A DNA stretch of 5,676 bases, taken from assembly GCA_030595925.1 (NCBI GenBank), contig JAUVLC010000138.1:1-5676 (forward strand), read 5' to 3'. Positions 1-5,647 of this stretch are shown here, in pieces. The first letter of the stretch is position 1. Every line of letters starts with the position of its first letter. The notes under the pieces are model-generated. The model had not been told where the DNA came from and ran no database searches. It saw only the letters and a program-made list of their open reading frames with translations. The position numbers and the translations under genes were made by a program. The stretch is from Clostridia bacterium. Its GTDB lineage: Bacteria; CBDUZB01; JAGLHV01.

Positions 1-206
1 TATTTTTTTTGCCTTTTTTACCTCCGGGGTGAATTTCCTTTTTTAACCATCCTCCCATCCATCTTTCCCTGCAAACTTTGGGGTAAAGTGATTTTTAATT
101 TCTTGTTTCTTCGACGCTATTTTTACAGCGCAAATAACTCGTGGCGAAAAAGACTTGACAAATAGAAAAAATATAATATACTTAAAAGATAAGAGGAAAT
201 AAAAAA
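1..206. other. Upstream non-coding region, T-rich
   Basis: I see no convincing reading frame on either strand before the first gene. The stretch is rich in T and C runs. It holds two weak inverted repeats: a 5-bp stem at 75-79/85-89 followed by a T-rich run, and CGCT (115-118) facing AGCG (127-130). Neither is strong enough to call a terminator or a structured RNA, and there is no GEMM-type aptamer here, unlike the leaders of the two PilX-like genes. The right end holds the promoter and the ribosome binding site of the first pilin gene. Confidence 0.6.
155..182 (+). promoter_or_regulatory. Sigma70-type promoter of the first pilV-pilW unit
   Basis: A perfect TTGACA -35 box (155-160) is followed after 16 nt by TATACT (177-182). 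A TATAAT at 172-177 is closer to consensus but only 11 nt from the -35 box, so TATACT is the better partner. Transcription would start near 189, just before the AGAGGA ribosome binding site (192-197), so the leader is very short and leaves no room for a riboswitch. Confidence 0.6.
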
Positions 207-680
207 ATGAAAAAAAACATCAAGGGAATGACTTTGGTAGAAGTAGTTATTGCTATGGTTATTTTAGTTACCCTGTTAGTGGGAATTGCGCCGATGTTTA
301 TAGCAATGATGAGAGCTAATACCCGGGATAGATGGGAAACCTTTGCGGTAGCACAAACGCGGGAGTTAATTGAAACCATAAAAAGGATAGCATCTACGTC
401 GACCGGATATATAAACGGGGACACCAATGGCAATACTATTATTGATAATCCTGCAGGATATCAGGAGATTGCTCTTACCGATGGAAATCATTCCGATCCG
501 AATAATCCGATTAGTTTTGTTTCAGGTGCGAAAACGATGAGGGTTAATAGATATTATAAGGTAGTTACTACAACCATCGGAACATCCAGCTATAAGACGA
601 TAACCGTCTGGATAGAACCTTCCGGTACGGAATCAATATTAAAAAAGGTGACACTGGAAACGGTAATTTCTTCACCATAA
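207..680 (+). CDS. PilV/GspI-like minor type IV prepilin (first copy)
   Basis: 157-aa class III prepilin, predicted to be cut by the prepilin peptidase and inserted into a T4P or pseudopilus tip complex. The signal is textbook: a short basic leader MKKNIKG, cleavage after Gly7, Met at mature +1 and Glu12 at mature +5, then a hydrophobic helix to about residue 35. The globular part starts with RDRWET and an E-x-x-E-x-x-K-R segment as in PilV/GspI proteins. A loop with D72, N74, N76 and D80 resembles a dockerin-type calcium loop. The C-terminal SYKTITVWIE strand is typical of the pilin beta-sheet. The start is supported by AGAGGA 9 nt upstream. It lies 13 nt before a PilW-like gene, so the two are co-transcribed. 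A clear paralogue lies at 5156-5647, sharing RDRW-[ED]-T, TSTGY, GDTN and SYKT-[IV]-TVW. Minor prepilin identity is secure; the PilV/GspI subclass is by family pattern and order. Confidence 0.9.
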   Translation: MKKNIKGMTLVEVVIAMVILVTLLVGIAPMFIAMMRANTRDRWETFAVAQTRELIETIKRIASTSTGYINGDTNGNTIIDNPAGYQEIALTDGNHSDPNNPISFVSGAKTMRVNRYYKVVTTTIGTSSYKTITVWIEPSGTESILKKVTLETVISSP

Positions 681-693
681 GCAAGAGAAAAAA

Positions 694-1380
694 ATGCAAA
701 AAAAAGTTTGTAAACAAAAAGGTTTTACTTTTTTAGAAATAATGATTAGTGTTGCTATTTTAGCTATGGTGGTATTGATGGGTAGTTTAGTGCAAAAGAA
801 AAATCAACAACTTTGGTTCAAATCAAATCAGCGTCGTGATGTTCAACAGAATGCCCGGATGGCACTGGACCAAATGGTTCGGGAGATAAAACAAGCAGGA
901 TATATCCATGGAAATAGGGCTCCTACGGATATACCCCCCGGTATTGGGCAGGCAATTGAGGTAGCTACGCCGAATACTATTAGTTTTAATGCGGTAATTA
1001 GGGATGTAAATGGGGATGGACTTAAGGAAGATACTACTACCTGGTCGGTTAATAGGGATACGGAGACGATAACTTTTTCTATGGTGCCTGTTTCCGGTAC
1101 TACTAAAAATAAAATTCAAAGGCATTCTGTCTTTGCGAATGGAGACAGGGATATGGATTTTACTTTACCGCAAGTAGATGTGGAAAATCTTGAATTTGAA
1201 TATAGAGATGGTCCGGGTAATATTTTGACCTTTCCGATTAGTATTCTGGATAGATATAATATTCGTTATATTAGTGTTTCTTTAAAAGTAAAAAAAGGAG
1301 CAGGACTCGGGAATACAGTCGCAGGATATGAGGAGATAATTCTAAAATCAGGAGTAAGTCCTCCCAATTTAAAACAGTGA
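694..1380 (+). CDS. PilW/GspJ-like minor type IV prepilin
   Basis: 228-aa prepilin with leader MQKKVCKQKG, cleavage after Gly10, Phe at mature +1 and Glu15 at mature +5, followed by a hydrophobic helix to about residue 33. The segment QQNARMALDQMVREIKQAGY (51-70) is the hallmark of PilW/GspJ/ComGF-like proteins, which sit with PilV and PilX in the minor pilin tip complex. Residues 104-112 (D-V-N-G-D-G-L-K-E) form a dockerin/EF-hand-like calcium loop. The rest is beta-rich pilin head, including a FEYRDG strand. The ATG lies 13 nt after the preceding stop with AAGAG (683-687) 6 nt upstream, so translation is probably coupled to the PilV-like gene. Length and layout look complete. The PilX-like gene expected next is separated by its own promoter and riboswitch rather than being directly linked. 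Confidence 0.9.
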   Translation: MQKKVCKQKGFTFLEIMISVAILAMVVLMGSLVQKKNQQLWFKSNQRRDVQQNARMALDQMVREIKQAGYIHGNRAPTDIPPGIGQAIEVATPNTISFNAVIRDVNGDGLKEDTTTWSVNRDTETITFSMVPVSGTTKNKIQRHSVFANGDRDMDFTLPQVDVENLEFEYRDGPGNILTFPISILDRYNIRYISVSLKVKKGAGLGNTVAGYEEIILKSGVSPPNLKQ

Positions 1381-1476: not shown

Positions 1477-1510
1477 TTGACAAAAAGAAAAAAAGTTATA
1501 TTTTTATAAT
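1477..1510 (+). promoter_or_regulatory. Probable promoter of the first riboswitch-pilX unit
   Basis: A perfect TTGACA (1477-1482) is followed by TATTTT (1499-1504) at 16 nt. A perfect TATAAT sits slightly later (1505-1510), but at 22 nt it is too far from this -35 box. Either hexamer puts the transcript start at about 1511-1517, some 25 nt before the aptamer. The -35 box is convincing and the choice of -10 is not. Confidence 0.5.
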
Positions 1511-1538: not shown

Positions 1539-1634
1539 TTTTAAGCGACAAAGGCAAATTCGTTGTAAAGCGAAGGAGCAAAGCCATGGGGCGCTATTAA
1601 GTAATAGCGGAAGCCGGGTTACCGAAACTTAAAA
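1539..1634 (+). promoter_or_regulatory. c-di-GMP-I (GEMM-I) riboswitch aptamer, first copy
   Basis: The conserved GEMM-I core is present: AAAGGCAAA (1550-1558), a hairpin TTCGTT/AGCGAA (1559-1564/1569-1574) capped by a GTAA GNRA tetraloop (1565-1568), GCAAAGCC (1578-1585), a second hairpin (1592-1598/1603-1609), and GCCGGGTTACCG (1613-1624). The closing stem is TTTTAAG (1539-1545) with CTTAAAA (1628-1634). By alignment to the Vibrio Vc2 aptamer, the ligand-contacting bases are G1554 (G20), A1581 (A47) and C1622 (C92). G at the first position is the c-di-GMP-type base, whereas cGAMP-sensing GEMM-Ib RNAs have A. The first hairpin differs in sequence from the copy at 4032 but keeps pairing and loop, which is covariation support. 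It precedes the large PilX-like gene and controls it through an overlapping terminator. Confidence 0.93.
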
Positions 1635-1660
1635 TAGATTGGTAATCCGGCTTTTTATTT
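1612..1660 (+). terminator. Riboswitch-controlled intrinsic terminator
   Basis: AGCCGGGTTACC (1612-1623) pairs with GGTAATCCGGCT (1641-1652) in a 12-bp stem with one G-T wobble, followed by TTTTTATTTTT. The left arm is the 3' part of the aptamer core and includes C1622, the base that pairs with the ligand. The closing strand 1628-1634 lies in the loop. The folded ligand-bound aptamer and the terminator therefore exclude each other, so binding of c-di-GMP should allow transcription into the PilX-like gene (ON switch). The pairing is seen directly; the direction of control is inferred. Confidence 0.85.
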
Positions 1661-1695
1661 TTATATATTATCTTTTAAAAGGGGGTAAAAGAAAA

Positions 1696-3450
1696 ATGTT
1701 ATGGATAAAAAAGGATTTAAATAAAAAAGGATTAGCCTTACCGATGGTTTTTTTAATAGCCGTTGTTTTTATTCCAGTGGCTGTAGGATTAGTGTTTCTT
1801 TTAAGACAGGAGACTAAGGTGGTAAGAAAGAGTAAGGTTTCCGCTCAGGCGGAGCAACTTGCTGAAGGGGCGGCAAATAGAGGGTTGATAGAATTAAAAA
1901 AACGCATAAATGAAGATCTGAAAGAAAATCTGGATACAAATGATTATGCTCCGAATGTAATAAGAAATACTTATGTAGCCAATCCAATGAATTTTATTCA
2001 TGATTGTCTGATTCTTTCTGCCTCGACCGATTTTTTTGATATTTGGGCGACTTCTGCAACCCTTACTTTTTCAGAAAACTTAGAAACAGGAAGTTACAGC
2101 ACTACAGTTGCTATTAGCACTACCCAGGCTCCTGTGTGGGAGCCGCATGGAGGAGGTCCGGGAAATCCTATAGCCCGTTTTTATTTTAAATATAAAATAA
2201 CGACAGAGAGTACAGTAAAATACGAGGCTAAGAGTGATAAAATTTTTGGTCTGGTGATAGATTCTCTTAGTCCCAATGCTGTTCGTCCTGATGGTGAATT
2301 TGAAATAAAAATAGCAAAACGGAATTTTTGCGAGTATAATCTTTTTTGTGAGAGTTTACAGGATAATAATTGGTTTACCGAGCGTTATGATTTTAGCGGC
2401 CCGGTTCATTTTAATGATGAAATCAATTTTTTTGGTGATCCCGGGAACAACGGTCTTTCCGGTACTTTCCATGATGAAGTTACCTGTACCGCAGCTACAG
2501 CGAATTTTTTTCACGGGGGTCAATTAGATGCAGACTTTTATGATAATGGTGATGGAGTAGCTAGTTCTGGTGATGACCGGCCGGTGTTTAATGCAGGGTT
2601 TCAGAGAGGGGTGGATACAATTGATATGCCGGATTTTGTACAAATGCAACTACAACAAACTACGGCATTGGGTTTACCCGATGGAGCGGCTATACCTGCT
2701 TGTGCTAATGGGGTTTATGTGCCTAATGACGGAGCTAATAATGTAACCGGGGGTATTTATATCCAGGGAGATGTAAATAATATGACTATGAGCACTGCAG
2801 GAGGAGGTAACAGAGCAGTATACACTATTGACCATGATAATGGGACGACATATACTGTTTCTGTTAATATGAACACTGGAAATACCAGGTTTAACGATGG
2901 AAGTGATCATAATTACACCGGAACTACTAATGGAGTAATTTTTACTAACGGCGGTGACATAAATGCTTTTTCCGGTACGGTTCAGGAAGATTCACAGGTT
3001 ACGGTTGCTGCTACCGGAGGGATTACCATTACTGACCATGTTCAATATGCAGATGATCCCCTTGTAAATCCAACGGCAACCAATGTTTTAGGTCTGCTTT
3101 CCTGGAATGATGATATTATGATTGGAACTTCCGCTCCGGATGATCTTACAGTACAGGCGTCTGTTATGACTCCCTCTGGTGAATTTGAAGTAGAAAATTA
3201 TAATTCTTGCGGCTTACGGGGGGATTTAAATTTGTTAGGTGGGGTGATTGGGGATGAGATGGGTTATCATGGCGTATTTGACGGTGTTACAGGAGCATTT
3301 GTTCATGGTTATGCAGATCAATATGTTTATGATGTCAGGTTTAAAGAGGGCATAGCTCCACCCAAATTTCCTACGATAGGTACTTTTCGGTCGGATGTTC
3401 TGGATTTTAATACGGCGCCGAGTTGGAGACGGCTAAAAGAGAAAATTTAG
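1696..3450 (+). CDS. Large PilX/GspK-like pilus protein with DUF4900-like body
   Basis: 584-aa protein starting at the ATG after AGGGGG (1680-1685, 10 nt spacing). A TTG at 1639 in the same frame is rejected because it lies inside the riboswitch terminator. The leader ends KKG (residue 12) and is followed by LALPM and a hydrophobic helix to about residue 36. Glu at mature +5 is absent, as in PilX and GspK. The helix continues into a charged segment with ETK (39-41) and an EQLAEGAANRGLIEL repeat-like helix typical of PilX N-termini. The body is beta-rich and fits my recollection of DUF4900 proteins: GPVHFNDEI (about 235-243), GGIYIQGDV (about 352), NGVIFTNGG (about 412), LGLLSWNDDIMI (464-475), GDLNLLGGVIG (509-519), GYADQYVYDVRF (538-549) and PPKFP (555-559). 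D278, D280, D283 and D286 form a possible metal-binding loop. Six cysteines are outside the membrane part. It is likely a surface-exposed, tip-associated minor pilin, expressed under c-di-GMP control. Domain naming is from memory. Confidence 0.85.
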   Translation: MLWIKKDLNKKGLALPMVFLIAVVFIPVAVGLVFLLRQETKVVRKSKVSAQAEQLAEGAANRGLIELKKRINEDLKENLDTNDYAPNVIRNTYVANPMNFIHDCLILSASTDFFDIWATSATLTFSENLETGSYSTTVAISTTQAPVWEPHGGGPGNPIARFYFKYKITTESTVKYEAKSDKIFGLVIDSLSPNAVRPDGEFEIKIAKRNFCEYNLFCESLQDNNWFTERYDFSGPVHFNDEINFFGDPGNNGLSGTFHDEVTCTAATANFFHGGQLDADFYDNGDGVASSGDDRPVFNAGFQRGVDTIDMPDFVQMQLQQTTALGLPDGAAIPACANGVYVPNDGANNVTGGIYIQGDVNNMTMSTAGGGNRAVYTIDHDNGTTYTVSVNMNTGNTRFNDGSDHNYTGTTNGVIFTNGGDINAFSGTVQEDSQVTVAATGGITITDHVQYADDPLVNPTATNVLGLLSWNDDIMIGTSAPDDLTVQASVMTPSGEFEVENYNSCGLRGDLNLLGGVIGDEMGYHGVFDGVTGAFVHGYADQYVYDVRFKEGIAPPKFPTIGTFRSDVLDFNTAPSWRRLKEKI

Positions 3451-3663
3451 AAATGAAACGAAAAACATATTATATTAATATCGTTGTGGGAAAAAAAGAC
3501 GAAGTAATTTTCATAAACTATTGTGTTAATTGGGATTGATTCCGCCGTTTAAATGACAATTTCAGCAAGTGCATAAATATTCCGCCTTATCGGTTTTAAT
3601 CCATAGGGCGGAGTTGTTATGCTTTGCAAAATTAAAAATATATTATACAAAGGAGAAAAAAAG
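3451..3663 (+). other. Intergenic leader with strong hairpin before the small gene
   Basis: No recognised gene lies here. TCCGCCTTAT (3581-3590) pairs with ATAGGGCGGA (3603-3612) in a 10-bp stem with one G-T wobble and a 12-nt loop. The downstream sequence (GTTGTTATGC) is not a proper T run, so it is a poor terminator. An extra copy of ATTCCGCC lies at 3539-3546, giving the right arm of the hairpin a second possible partner, and GGATT (3533-3537) could pair with AATCC in the loop (3598-3602). The layout suggests a structured leader or attenuator for the gene at 3664, but it matches no riboswitch class I know. No clear promoter was found. An AT-only inverted repeat (AACGA 3457-3461, TCGTT 3481-3485) is weaker still. 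Confidence 0.5.
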
Positions 3664-3963
3664 ATGACAAAAAAGTTTCCGGTAATAATTTTTAGTTTTT
3701 TGGTATTAGGAATGTTATTTACAGAAGGAGTGTCTGGGGTTAAGATCGTTGGTTTGTCTCCGGTACAAAGGCGCCTGGAAAATAAAAAAGTAGAAGCACC
3801 GGTAGAAACTGTTGTTTCCGAAGAAAAAAGAGAAGTAGAAATCGAAGATAAAATTGAAGAAAAAGAAGTAAAAGACACAAACGGATTAATTTTTATTATT
3901 ATAATAGGAGCTGTTGTTGGATGGGTATTATTGAAATCTTTTAAAAAAGGAAAGAAAAAGTAA
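3664..3963 (+). CDS. Small secreted/membrane-anchored protein of unknown function
   Basis: 99-aa protein that I do not recognise. The start is fixed by AAAGGAG (3649-3655) 8 nt before the ATG; an in-frame ATG at 3619 overlaps the upstream hairpin region and has no such site. Residues 1-25 look like a Sec signal peptide: MTKK, a hydrophobic core to about residue 19, and a possible cut after VSG (23-25). Residues 39-71 are a highly charged linker rich in K, E and V (for example EIEDKIEEKEVK). Residues 74-93 are a second hydrophobic segment, ending in KKGKKK. After cleavage the protein would be bitopic with the acidic linker outside and the basic tail in the cytoplasm. No prepilin motif, sortase motif or catalytic residues are seen. 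Its place between two riboswitch-driven PilX units suggests a pilus accessory role, which is inference only. Confidence 0.75.
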   Translation: MTKKFPVIIFSFLVLGMLFTEGVSGVKIVGLSPVQRRLENKKVEAPVETVVSEEKREVEIEDKIEEKEVKDTNGLIFIIIIGAVVGWVLLKSFKKGKKK

Positions 3964-3982
3964 AAAAAGTTTAAATTTAGTT

Positions 3983-4011
3983 TTGACGAATTGCAAAAAT
4001 GATGTTATACT
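3983..4011 (+). promoter_or_regulatory. Strong promoter of the second riboswitch-pilX unit
   Basis: TTGACG (3983-3988) and TATACT (4006-4011) are separated by an ideal 17 nt. A TG at 4003-4004 one base before the -10 box makes it an extended -10 promoter. Transcription would start near 4018, about 14 nt before the aptamer. This is the best promoter in the window. Confidence 0.8.
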
Positions 4012-4031
4012 AAAAACAAGTAAAGTATAAG

Positions 4032-4128
4032 TTTATAACGATAAAGGCAAACCATCTGTAAAGGTGGGACGCAAAGCTACAAGATCCATTGTTAAGTAAT
4101 GATGGATAGCCGGGTTACCGAAAATGAA
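4032..4128 (+). promoter_or_regulatory. c-di-GMP-I (GEMM-I) riboswitch aptamer, second copy
   Basis: A close match to the GEMM-I consensus: AAAGGCAAACC (4043-4053), hairpin CCATCT/AGGTGG (4052-4057/4062-4067) capped by GTAA (4058-4061), GGGACGCAAAGC (4066-4077), second hairpin (4084-4090/4101-4107) and GCCGGGTTACCG (4109-4120). A short closing stem TTTAT (4032-4036) with ATGAA (4124-4128) is weak and includes a wobble. The inferred ligand contacts are G4047 (G20 of Vc2), A4074 (A47) and C4118 (C92). As in the first copy, the base at position 20 is G, favouring c-di-GMP over cGAMP. It leads the short PilX-like gene at 4242. Its expression platform is not arranged like that of the first copy. 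Confidence 0.95.
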
Positions 4129-4153
4129 AGAAAAATCAAGGAAGAGATTTCTT

Positions 4154-4195
4154 AAACCGGATTATCCGTAGCAAAGCGGGTAATCCGGTTTTTTT
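4154..4195 (+). terminator. Stand-alone intrinsic terminator of the second riboswitch
   Basis: AAACCGGATTATCCG (4154-4168) pairs with CGGGTAATCCGGTTT (4177-4191) in a 15-bp stem with one G-T wobble and an 8-nt loop, followed by T residues to 4195. This hairpin lies wholly downstream of the aptamer. The right arm can also pair with the aptamer strand 4108-4119, as in the first riboswitch. The aptamer strand CCGGGTTA (4110-4117) can in turn pair with TAAACCGG (4153-4160) apart from one G-A mismatch, giving a possible antiterminator. The terminator itself is clear; how ligand binding affects it is not. Confidence 0.88.
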
Positions 4196-4241
4196 AAATT
4201 GGCAAGGGGACAATCTCTAAGGATAAAAGGAGGGAATAAAA

Positions 4242-4997
4242 ATGGGTAAAAGGAGGATGTGTTTACGGTCAGAAAAGGGGATTGTTATGCCGTTAGTGTT
4301 ATTAATGATTTTAGTTTTGATTCCTATTGGACTGGGTTTATCCAATTTAACCAAAATAGAAACAAAGACTACTGTGGCGGCAAAGAAAACAAGCCGGGCG
4401 ATTCAATTGGTTAGTGCCGGAGTACAAAGAGCAATGGTGGAGATAGTTAATAATGTAAGTTACCTTGGTCCTGGGGCTGTACAGAATTTATCAACAGGGC
4501 AATATACAATTAATATTTCCACCCCGGGATGTAGTTTTCAAGGGAATATTTTACCGGTTAATCGTTATGGTATAGAAGCCATTGGTTATGTTCCTAACCT
4601 GGTTCAAGCAGATGAAACAAGAAAAGTTGTTGCTTTTGTCAACAGGATACCATTTAACAATCATGGTTTATTTGATTTTGCTGTTACCGCAGGGGATGGG
4701 GGAATTGACATTAGAGGGAATTGCTTAGTAGATGGAGATCTAATTACCAGTGGTATCGCGAATAGTCAAGGGAGTGTAACTATTACAGGAACAGTTATCG
4801 ATGGGGATGCTTCAGTCGCTAATTTTTCTCCCTTAGTTGCTCCGGAAACAGCAATAGATTTAGGAGCAATAGATCTAAATGGAAATAATAATTTTACTAT
4901 AAATCCGGGAACTTATACTTGTAGTTCTATAAATATCAGGGGAAATGCCAGAATAACCCTGAATACAATTCCTGAAGGGGATGCAGTTTATTCATAA
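4242..4997 (+). CDS. Short PilX/GspK-like minor prepilin with beta-repeat tail
   Basis: 251-aa protein with a strong AAGGAGG (4227-4233) 8 nt before the ATG. The leader ends EKG (residue 13), followed by IVMPLVLLMILVLIPIGLGL; Glu at mature +5 is absent, as in PilX/GspK. The N-terminus closely parallels the 584-aa protein upstream: Pro at mature +4, a central I-P in the helix, then ETK and a Q-L-x-x-x-G-x-x-R segment. The middle (about 85-135) contains a YGIEAIGYVPN-like strand typical of this protein group. From about 150 on, GDGGIDIRGN, VDGDLITSG, GSVTITG and VIDGDASV look like short beta-solenoid turns, and NPGTYTCSSINIRGNARITL (221-240) resembles a motif that in relatives I recall is followed by more beta turns. 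The protein stops 11 residues later, so it may be C-terminally shortened. It is controlled by the second c-di-GMP riboswitch. Confidence 0.85.
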   Translation: MGKRRMCLRSEKGIVMPLVLLMILVLIPIGLGLSNLTKIETKTTVAAKKTSRAIQLVSAGVQRAMVEIVNNVSYLGPGAVQNLSTGQYTINISTPGCSFQGNILPVNRYGIEAIGYVPNLVQADETRKVVAFVNRIPFNNHGLFDFAVTAGDGGIDIRGNCLVDGDLITSGIANSQGSVTITGTVIDGDASVANFSPLVAPETAIDLGAIDLNGNNNFTINPGTYTCSSINIRGNARITLNTIPEGDAVYS

Positions 4998-5020
4998 ATA
5001 AAATTTTTTATTTATTTTTA
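4994..5020 (+). terminator. Weak A-T-only hairpin at the end of the short pilX
   Basis: ATAAATAAA (4994-5002) pairs with TTTATTTAT (5007-5015) around a 4-nt loop and is followed by TTTTTA. The stem is perfect but holds no G-C pair, so it can be at most a leaky terminator. It overlaps the stop codon. A separate promoter for the next gene begins at 5060, which fits a transcript end here. Confidence 0.35.
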
Positions 5021-5059
5021 ATACTTTTAGTTTTTATATGCCTAATTTTTTGAATTTAC

Positions 5060-5088
5060 TTGACAGATTTCAAAAATAGATATATATT
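5060..5088 (+). promoter_or_regulatory. Promoter of the second pilV-pilW unit
   Basis: TTGACA (5060-5065) and TATATT (5083-5088) lie 17 nt apart, a near-consensus arrangement. Transcription would start near 5095, leaving a leader of about 60 nt in which I see no riboswitch or terminator. As in the first module, the PilV-like gene is thus not behind a c-di-GMP aptamer. Confidence 0.75.
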
Positions 5089-5155: not shown

Positions 5156-5647
5156 ATGGAAAAAGAAAAATTTAGTAAAATAAAAGAGAAAAAAGGGATG
5201 ACCCTTATTGAATTGGTAGTGGGAATGGCTCTTTTATCTATTGTTTTATTGGGTCTTATTCCGGTATTGACTATGGTAATGAAGGGTAATGTTCGGGATA
5301 GATGGGATACATTAGCTATGCAGCGGGCAGAAGAATTTATTGAAATAATAAAAAGAGTTGCTTTAACCAGTACAGGTTATGATTCGGGTGACACTAATAA
5401 TTCCGCAGCGATAGATACAGCTAATTATAAAGAAGTTGTGTTGGGTCCTGATGGTACTTATGATGATCAGTTTAATCCCATTTTTTTATCTGGAGCGACA
5501 TCAGGCATACTTGCTAATCGGCGATACAGTGTAGCAACTACAGTTGTAGGTATTACCAGTTATAAAACCGTAACTGTCTGGGTAGAGGCTATGGATTCTT
5601 CGTTATTGCGGACAGTAACAATTGAAACAATTATTTCAGAACCTTAA
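5156..5647 (+). CDS. PilV/GspI-like minor type IV prepilin (second copy)
   Basis: 163-aa prepilin paralogous to the protein at 207-680. The leader is longer and highly charged (MEKEKFSKIKEKKG), with cleavage after Gly14, Met at mature +1 and Glu19 at mature +5, then a hydrophobic helix to about residue 42. Shared blocks are RDRWDT, F-I-E-I-I-K-R, TSTGY, GDTN, SYKTVTVWVE and T-x-E-T-I-I-S-x-P. The acidic loop keeps its spacing (D79, N81, S83, D87, against D72, N74, N76, D80 in the first copy). GAAGG (5142-5146) lies 9 nt before the ATG. A 14-nt stretch around the RDRW codons (5294-5307) is identical in DNA to 324-337, but overall the copies have diverged well, so the duplication is not recent. 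It probably forms the V subunit of a second tip set with the truncated gene that follows. Confidence 0.9.
   Translation: MEKEKFSKIKEKKGMTLIELVVGMALLSIVLLGLIPVLTMVMKGNVRDRWDTLAMQRAEEFIEIIKRVALTSTGYDSGDTNNSAAIDTANYKEVVLGPDGTYDDQFNPIFLSGATSGILANRRYSVATTVVGITSYKTVTVWVEAMDSSLLRTVTIETIISEP

Follow-up and report, generated by a model that had tools for sequence, protein, structure and literature searches.

Opposed c-di-GMP-I riboswitches predicted before paralogous X-type minor pilin genes in a clostridial pilus locus

The stretch of DNA analysed here, referred to below as the window, comprises 5,676 nucleotides from a member of the Clostridia (contig JAUVLC010000138.1) and is the entire contig C72 of a 2.6-Mb metagenome-assembled genome (193 contigs, 97% complete; G000 below). 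It carries part of a type IV pilus locus in which the genes for X-type (PilX/GspK-like) minor pilins, and not those for the PilV-like prepilins, are preceded by aptamers of the cyclic di-GMP (c-di-GMP)-I class. The leaders of two paralogous kinds of X subunit, represented by pilX1 on the one hand and by pilX2 and pilX3 on the other, differ in architecture. On the evidence of these leaders it is considered rather probable that the c-di-GMP-I switches on the two kinds of gene have opposite polarity, so that the locus would be reciprocally wired.

Two leader designs in one pilus locus

Both aptamers of the window were identified with cmscan (Table 1), which returned no other credible RNA element. 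Aptamer B, in the pilX2 leader, was matched by the Rfam model RF03167 with 61 bits (gathering threshold 59; E value 5.3e-13) and by RF01051 with 62.8 bits (gathering threshold 35). Aptamer A, in the pilX1 leader, scored 54 bits with RF03167, slightly under the same threshold (E value 5.5e-11), and 58.7 bits with RF01051, again above 35. Each aptamer has a promoter-like site of its own upstream, and a terminator and then a PilX-like gene downstream. These covariance-model matches bear out the original prediction, made from the DNA letters without database searches, that two such aptamers, each with a promoter and a terminator, stand before the PilX-like genes. No third aptamer was detected in the window by cmscan, even at an E value of 1, and hence none before pilV1 or pilV2; as had also been claimed, both of these genes have promoters and no aptamer. 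The best plus-strand promoter-like matches in the window include all four expected starts (pilV1, pilX1, pilX2 and pilV2); the total of such sites was not above that in shuffled sequences, and these four were accepted on their position and on the strength of their −35 and −10 elements.

At the ligand-contact bases G20, A47 and C92, a numbering that we take to follow from alignment to Vc2, both aptamers of the window read AAAGGC, GCAAAG and UUACCG, respectively. Judged from the retention of G20 and C92, their ligand is probably c-di-GMP. The notion that the GGC variant denotes a different ligand was rejected, since the classical model RF01051 scores the window aptamers as well as or better than the variant model.

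In the pilX1 leader, the aptamer and the terminator draw on the same nucleotides. It is apparent that GCCGGGTTACC, at the end of the aptamer, pairs with GGTAATCCGGC, situated directly before the U-tract, and that the pairing is perfect, with one G-T. The terminator takes up the 3′ strand of the aptamer helix P3 together with C92, and it does likewise in pilX1 of G001, a genome of the same genus, and in X4, a further pilX1 paralogue (62% identical) with an aptamer in front of it on contig C140. When the overlap was measured with a test anchored on the U-run, 16 of 18, 23 of 23 and 19 of 19 nucleotides of the terminator 5′ arm lay within the aptamer (pilX1 of the two species and X4). In modelled elongation of the pilX1 leader, the aptamer helix was populated until the terminator arm emerged and then dropped to zero, a direct changeover. 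Since the terminator needs the aptamer 3′ strand, an aptamer held by its ligand should prevent termination, and the pilX1 switch appears to be ON at high c-di-GMP.

The pilX2 and pilX3 leaders are built differently. Their terminators start 22–31 nucleotides past the aptamer and have 0 nucleotides in common with it. In the most stable fold predicted for the moment before the terminator 3′ arm appears, GCUACGG, in the P3 5′ strand, pairs with CCGUAGC, which would later lie in the terminator apex and loop, to form an antiterminator that uses 4–6 aptamer nucleotides. Folding calculations placed this antiterminator 2.7–10 kcal/mol below the aptamer fold before the terminator 3′ arm is made, and its probability climbed to 0.71–1.0 in modelled elongation. 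A P3 helix held by ligand would free the apex, so that the terminator would form, and the pilX2 and pilX3 switches appear, as predicted from their leaders, to be OFF at high c-di-GMP. The OFF design is cleanest in the leaders of pilX2 from G001 and of pilX3 from each of the three genomes of the genus (G000, G001 and G002).

The antiterminator was examined further in terms of covariation, with a set of 15 distinct leaders from the three genomes, those of non-pilus genes included. The nine-pair helix between the P3 5′ strand and the terminator apex was 84% paired over these leaders, and five of the nine pairs were changed on both sides. No fewer than three independent-looking compensatory changes can be told apart; they include A-U to G-C (pilX3 of G002; C137) and G-C to A-U (C169b, C112a). 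In G002, the natural compensatory pair is GCUGCGG with CCGCAGC. The covariation score was reached by 0 of 500 shuffles and the observed pairing by 1 of 20000 trials in which partners were swapped among leaders, in each case with the reservation that shuffle tests ignore kinship and so overstate the independence of three related genomes of one genus. Sliding the partner by 1–3 bases reduced the pairing to 16–49%. The same complementarity was sought in the ON-design leaders, and none was found. There are 43 c-di-GMP-I leaders in the genus, with about 14–15 of each design.

Taken together, these data are consistent with a mechanism in which each X-type gene would have its own promoter and a c-di-GMP-I riboswitch acting by transcription termination. 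In the leader of pilX1 (long, DUF4900), the ligand would block a terminator that needs the aptamer 3′ strand, C92 included, and the gene would be on at high c-di-GMP. In the leaders of pilX2 and pilX3 (short, DUF7305), the unliganded P3 5′ strand would pair with the terminator apex and termination would be averted; with ligand bound, P3 would be locked, the apex free and the terminator formed, and the genes would be off. One messenger would in this way swap the X subunit of the pilus, with pilV/W, the major pilin and the motors lacking a riboswitch. The original prediction had suggested the gating of one tip component, with a single direction implicitly assumed. That assumption is not upheld by the opposite leader architectures, which make an exchange of X-type subunits the better reading. 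It is tentatively proposed, with somewhat less than even confidence, that the cell re-tips its type IV pili, with long X1 at high c-di-GMP and short X2/X3 at low, the remaining components being without riboswitches. The tip location of GspK/PilX is established in other systems, and by analogy a tip position would be expected for the X-type subunits of this pilus. The aptamers, promoter matches, terminators, mutually exclusive pairings, covariation and conservation are read from the sequences themselves; as parts of the proposal we infer, besides the tip location, the identity of the ligand, the direction of switching in cells and a functional difference between the X subunits.

Selectivity for X-type genes and the surrounding locus

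A covariance-model search of the whole genome revealed 19 c-di-GMP-I aptamers. Such an aptamer precedes 4 of the 4 X-type genes whose leader is visible, as against 0 of the 13 genes for class III prepilins, and none stands before the pilA-pilC-pilD-pilM-N-O cluster (C90) or before pilB/pilT (C83). The selectivity for X-type genes is therefore a property of the genome rather than a chance feature of the window. A comparison with related genomes had been suggested, and G001 does have the same gene order, on a single contig, where each of the three pilX genes has an aptamer ahead of it. A single c-di-GMP-I-GGC aptamer precedes an entire pilV-pilW-pilX operon in the unrelated genome G044 (L089); the leader of this operon has an antiterminator that looks to be of the OFF type and differs from that of pilX2/pilX3. 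Control of the whole set thus exists elsewhere, and confinement to the X gene characterises this genus. The gap between pilX2 and pilV2 is free of terminators, so that read-through from pilX2 could reach pilV2. The claim that only the X-type subunit is switched therefore holds for the placement of the aptamers, but the selectivity is not absolute.

The N termini of the two X-type proteins in the window (KKGLALPMVFLIAVVF and EKGIVMPLVLLMILVL) are prepilin-like, with charged residues, a glycine and a hydrophobic helix, and lack Glu5. The N_methyl profile, which requires Glu5, gave no match to either protein, and PilX_N remained below its cut-off for both, as it did for PilX2 of G001 (E value 0.007). 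In G044, the homologue of pilX1 (39% identity, E value 1e-82) passes the cut-offs of both PilX_N and DUF4900. The prepilin-like N terminus is shared by pilX2 and pilX3, full-length copies of which end in a C-terminal DUF7305.

The features of the window are listed in Table 1. The locus encodes two minor-pilin sets, each of pilV-pilW plus X-type genes, and it continues on contig C191. The genes that come after pilV2 are pilW2, one for a HAMP-like membrane protein, pilX3 with a third aptamer in front of it, and one for a PilZ-domain protein; gyrA lies beyond them on the opposite strand. The PilZ-domain gene (L041, 3164–3619) represents a possible protein-level receptor for c-di-GMP in the same locus. 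Signalling and pilus machinery are represented in the genome by 9 GGDEF matches, type IV pilus ATPases and pilA/C/D/M/N/O.

Table 1. Features of the 5,676-nucleotide window, with the evidence on which each was placed
Feature	Coordinates	Strand	Evidence
Promoter-like site of pilV1, TTGACA-16-TATACT	155..182	+	Promoter scan; no RNA family match at E≤1
pilV1-like class III prepilin gene	207..680	+	N_methyl over cut-off; TIGR02523 PilV below cut-off
pilW1-like class III prepilin gene	694..1380	+	N_methyl over cut-off
Promoter-like site of pilX1	1477..1504	+	Promoter scan
c-di-GMP-I aptamer A (pilX1 leader)	1544..1627	+	cmscan; G20 and C92 retained
Aptamer 3′ strand doubling as 5′ arm of pilX1 terminator, GCCGGGTTACC	1613..1623	+	Folding; U-run-anchored test
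Terminator 3′ arm GGTAATCCGGC plus U-tract, pilX1 leader	1641..1661	+	Folding; modelled elongation; U-run-anchored test
pilX1, long X-type minor pilin, 584 amino acids, DUF4900-like	1696..3450	+	Profile searches; homologue in G044
Small protein, hydrophobic segments at N- and C-terminal ends	3664..3963	+	Conserved in G001
Promoter-like site of pilX2	3983..4011	+	Promoter scan
c-di-GMP-I aptamer B (pilX2 leader)	4037..4123	+	cmscan; G20 and C92 retained
Predicted antiterminator strand 1, GCTAC (P3 5′ strand of aptamer B)	4076..4080	+	Folding; modelled elongation; covariation
Independent intrinsic terminator, pilX2 leader	4154..4197	+	Stem 4154–4191, then U-tract
Predicted antiterminator strand 2, GTAGC (terminator apex/loop)	4168..4172	+	Folding; modelled elongation; covariation
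pilX2, short X-type minor pilin, 251 amino acids, C-terminally truncated	4242..4997	+	Comparison with G001 orthologue
Promoter-like site of pilV2, without aptamer	5060..5088	+	Promoter scan; Rfam search
pilV2-like class III prepilin gene	5156..5647	+	N_methyl over cut-off
Overlap with contig C191	5536..5676	.	Final 141 bases of window identical to first 141 of C191

Other c-di-GMP-I aptamers of the genus stand before different genes. Those of L018/L043 (G000:C169) and L009/L047 (G000:C178) precede genes for Flp-type pilin and TadE/TadG-like proteins, so that the c-di-GMP regulon spans a second pilus type. Two copies of the aptamer 3′ strand (GCCGAGC..UACCG) occur in L036/L014 (G000:C178), L019 (G000:C32), L108, L109, L015 and L111; the proximal copy is imperfect in several of these leaders, the distal copy is also the terminator 5′ arm, and the covariance models sometimes favour the distal copy. 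Such leaders could represent an ON design through competition between the two 3′ strands. In L013 (G000:C122), L100 (G002:C354) and L095 (G001:C125), the end of the aptamer is separated from the ATG of a subtilase gene by 1–2 nucleotides, too few to accommodate a terminator or an ordinary ribosome-binding site; control here is probably translational, the start region lying inside or beside the aptamer. A degenerate 39-bit aptamer that has lost its 3′ half, at 314–396 of L086 (G002:C346), precedes an intact X-type gene in a locus different from that of pilX2, with an orthologue partly on G000:C174, and is a riboswitch in decay. A third kind of leader, with a high-scoring aptamer, a separate terminator and no P3-apex helix, was found in L001 (C142), L002 (C48), L007 (C183) and L094 (G002:C333), before unrelated genes such as one for a YhcG/NucS-type nuclease.

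Observations against reciprocal wiring, and alternatives

Several observations, in addition to the kinship of the three genomes mentioned above, weigh against the reciprocal reading. Equilibrium folding favours the complete terminator in leaders of either type, so that the two switches must act kinetically, as must the Cd1 and pilM riboswitches discussed below. The antiterminator of pilX2 in the window is the weakest of the set (5 bp), and the gene itself lacks about 105 C-terminal residues (DUF7305) that are present in the G001 orthologue. The approximately 330 bases that encode this part in G001 are missing at 4980–5060 of the window, and no remnant of them was found downstream; this copy may be decaying. 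Because pilX2 of the window is truncated and has a weak antiterminator, reciprocity is clearest between pilX1 and pilX3. The Pfam PilX assignment of pilX2/pilX3 is under the cut-off, and the AlphaFold models, with mean pLDDT (predicted local distance difference test) scores of 38 for the pilX2 orthologue and 32 for pilX1, are credible for an N-terminal helix only. Finally, pilX1 of G001 (L104) has A at position 20 (AAAAGC), a signature of preference for cyclic AMP-GMP (c-AMP-GMP). The same A20 is present in L095 (G001:C125) and in the orthologous L017 (G000:C56) and L107 (G002:C179); in the C125 and pilX1 leaders the change from G to A is confined to G001. Species may therefore differ in the ligand of their ON switch, the specificity of which may drift.

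The truncation of pilX2 leads to the view that the locus is partly decayed, with pilX2 a pseudogene behind a weakened switch and meaningful regulation limited to pilX1 and pilX3. The missing residues and the 5-bp antiterminator would suit such decay, as would the degenerate aptamer of the separate G002 paralogue (C346). Nevertheless, pilX2 retains an intact promoter, aptamer, terminator and open reading frame and its antiterminator reaches a probability of 0.71–0.96, and reciprocal control would in any case persist as pilX1 versus pilX3. Partial decay in this sense is regarded as rather unlikely.

Reciprocal wiring would be lost if both switches acted in the same direction and the X-type subunits were gated together, the pilX2/pilX3 antiterminator then being a by-product of a terminator that resembles the aptamer. 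The 5′ arm of that terminator does resemble the aptamer 3′ strand, its 3′ arm could pair with the aptamer, and equilibrium folding yields the terminator in every state. The complementarity, however, reaches into the terminator loop (GUAGC), which is dispensable for the terminator, the complementary segment covaries with the aptamer P3 strand, and the overlap of 0 between terminator and aptamer makes the pilX1 mechanism impossible in these leaders. Joint gating is thus judged quite improbable. A specific form of it, in which pilX2/pilX3 would also be ON through pairing of the terminator 3′ arm with the aptamer 3′ strand, was rejected on the grounds that the terminator does not need this pairing to be complete and that the apex-P3 helix covaries.

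It is very doubtful that the aptamers, at least those before pilX1, sense c-AMP-GMP or another dinucleotide, so that two messengers would act rather than one in opposite ways: the A at the contact position in the X1 and C125 leaders of G001 and in the C56/C179 leaders would fit this, as would the Desulfobacca aptamers of one locus that vary both at this position and in the ligand they prefer (PMC9481103) and the association of c-AMP-GMP aptamers with pilus genes in Geobacter (PMC9262584), but both aptamers of the window retain G20 and C92 and score well with RF01051.

Comparison with known systems

If the reciprocal reading is right, the predicted choice is which X subunit is made, with one messenger acting in opposite directions and the engine and major pilin left unswitched. 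Control of pili by c-di-GMP is usually studied as all-or-nothing, that is, whether pili are made or not, or are extended or retracted. The question of whether minor pilins define pilus function becomes directly testable here, the prediction being a reversal of sign between two short leaders, which also provide a clean pair for the study of the evolution of both ON and OFF platforms on a single aptamer scaffold.

Each platform is known singly. The pilM riboswitch of Geobacter metallireducens, a member of the GEMM-I clan that responds to c-AMP-GMP, is an ON switch whose terminator is made from an aptamer strand (PMC9262584). The pilX1 leader resembles it in forming its terminator from the aptamer 3′ strand, including the ligand-pairing C, in the mutually exclusive folds and in the association with pilus genes; it differs in having, in the window, G rather than A at the ligand position of the aptamer, in preceding an X-type minor pilin gene and not pilM, and in the presence of an opposite switch in the locus. 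In the Cd1 riboswitch of Clostridioides difficile, the aptamer of which is homologous to that of pilM, aptamer and terminator coexist and an antiterminator competes, with an OFF response; this antiterminator is stable only transiently (PMC9262584), which fits the kinetic action needed in the pilX2/pilX3 leaders. The likeness extends to the coexistence of aptamer and terminator, an antiterminator that dismantles the aptamer, termination in response to ligand and a similar distance from completion of the aptamer to the decision point. The antiterminator of pilX2/pilX3, however, would use the P3 5′ strand (GCUACGG), whereas that of Cd1 uses the 3′ strand of the ligand pocket, and the genes encode minor pilins rather than flagella.

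In the open-access literature, no earlier description was found of a single locus whose paralogous minor pilins are under opposite c-di-GMP-I switches, and as far as could be found the combination of the two platforms is new. In the G044 operon, a pilX1 homologue is likewise under a riboswitch of the same family, but the aptamer there stands before the whole minor-pilin operon. C. difficile has a class I OFF switch for flagella and a class II ON switch for a pilin operon (PMC11477304); one messenger thus acts in two directions on surface appendages, as is proposed here, but through two unrelated aptamer classes in distant operons for different organelles, in contrast to one class with two platforms on paralogous subunits of one locus. 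In Myxococcus xanthus, the HsfBA phosphorelay exchanges pilY1.1 and pilY1.3 (PMC9109919). As is proposed here, paralogous components of the pilus tip are regulated divergently in that system, an arrangement suggested to accessorise pilus tips; the system employs a protein phosphorelay and PilY1, where the locus described here would employ riboswitches and X-type pilins.

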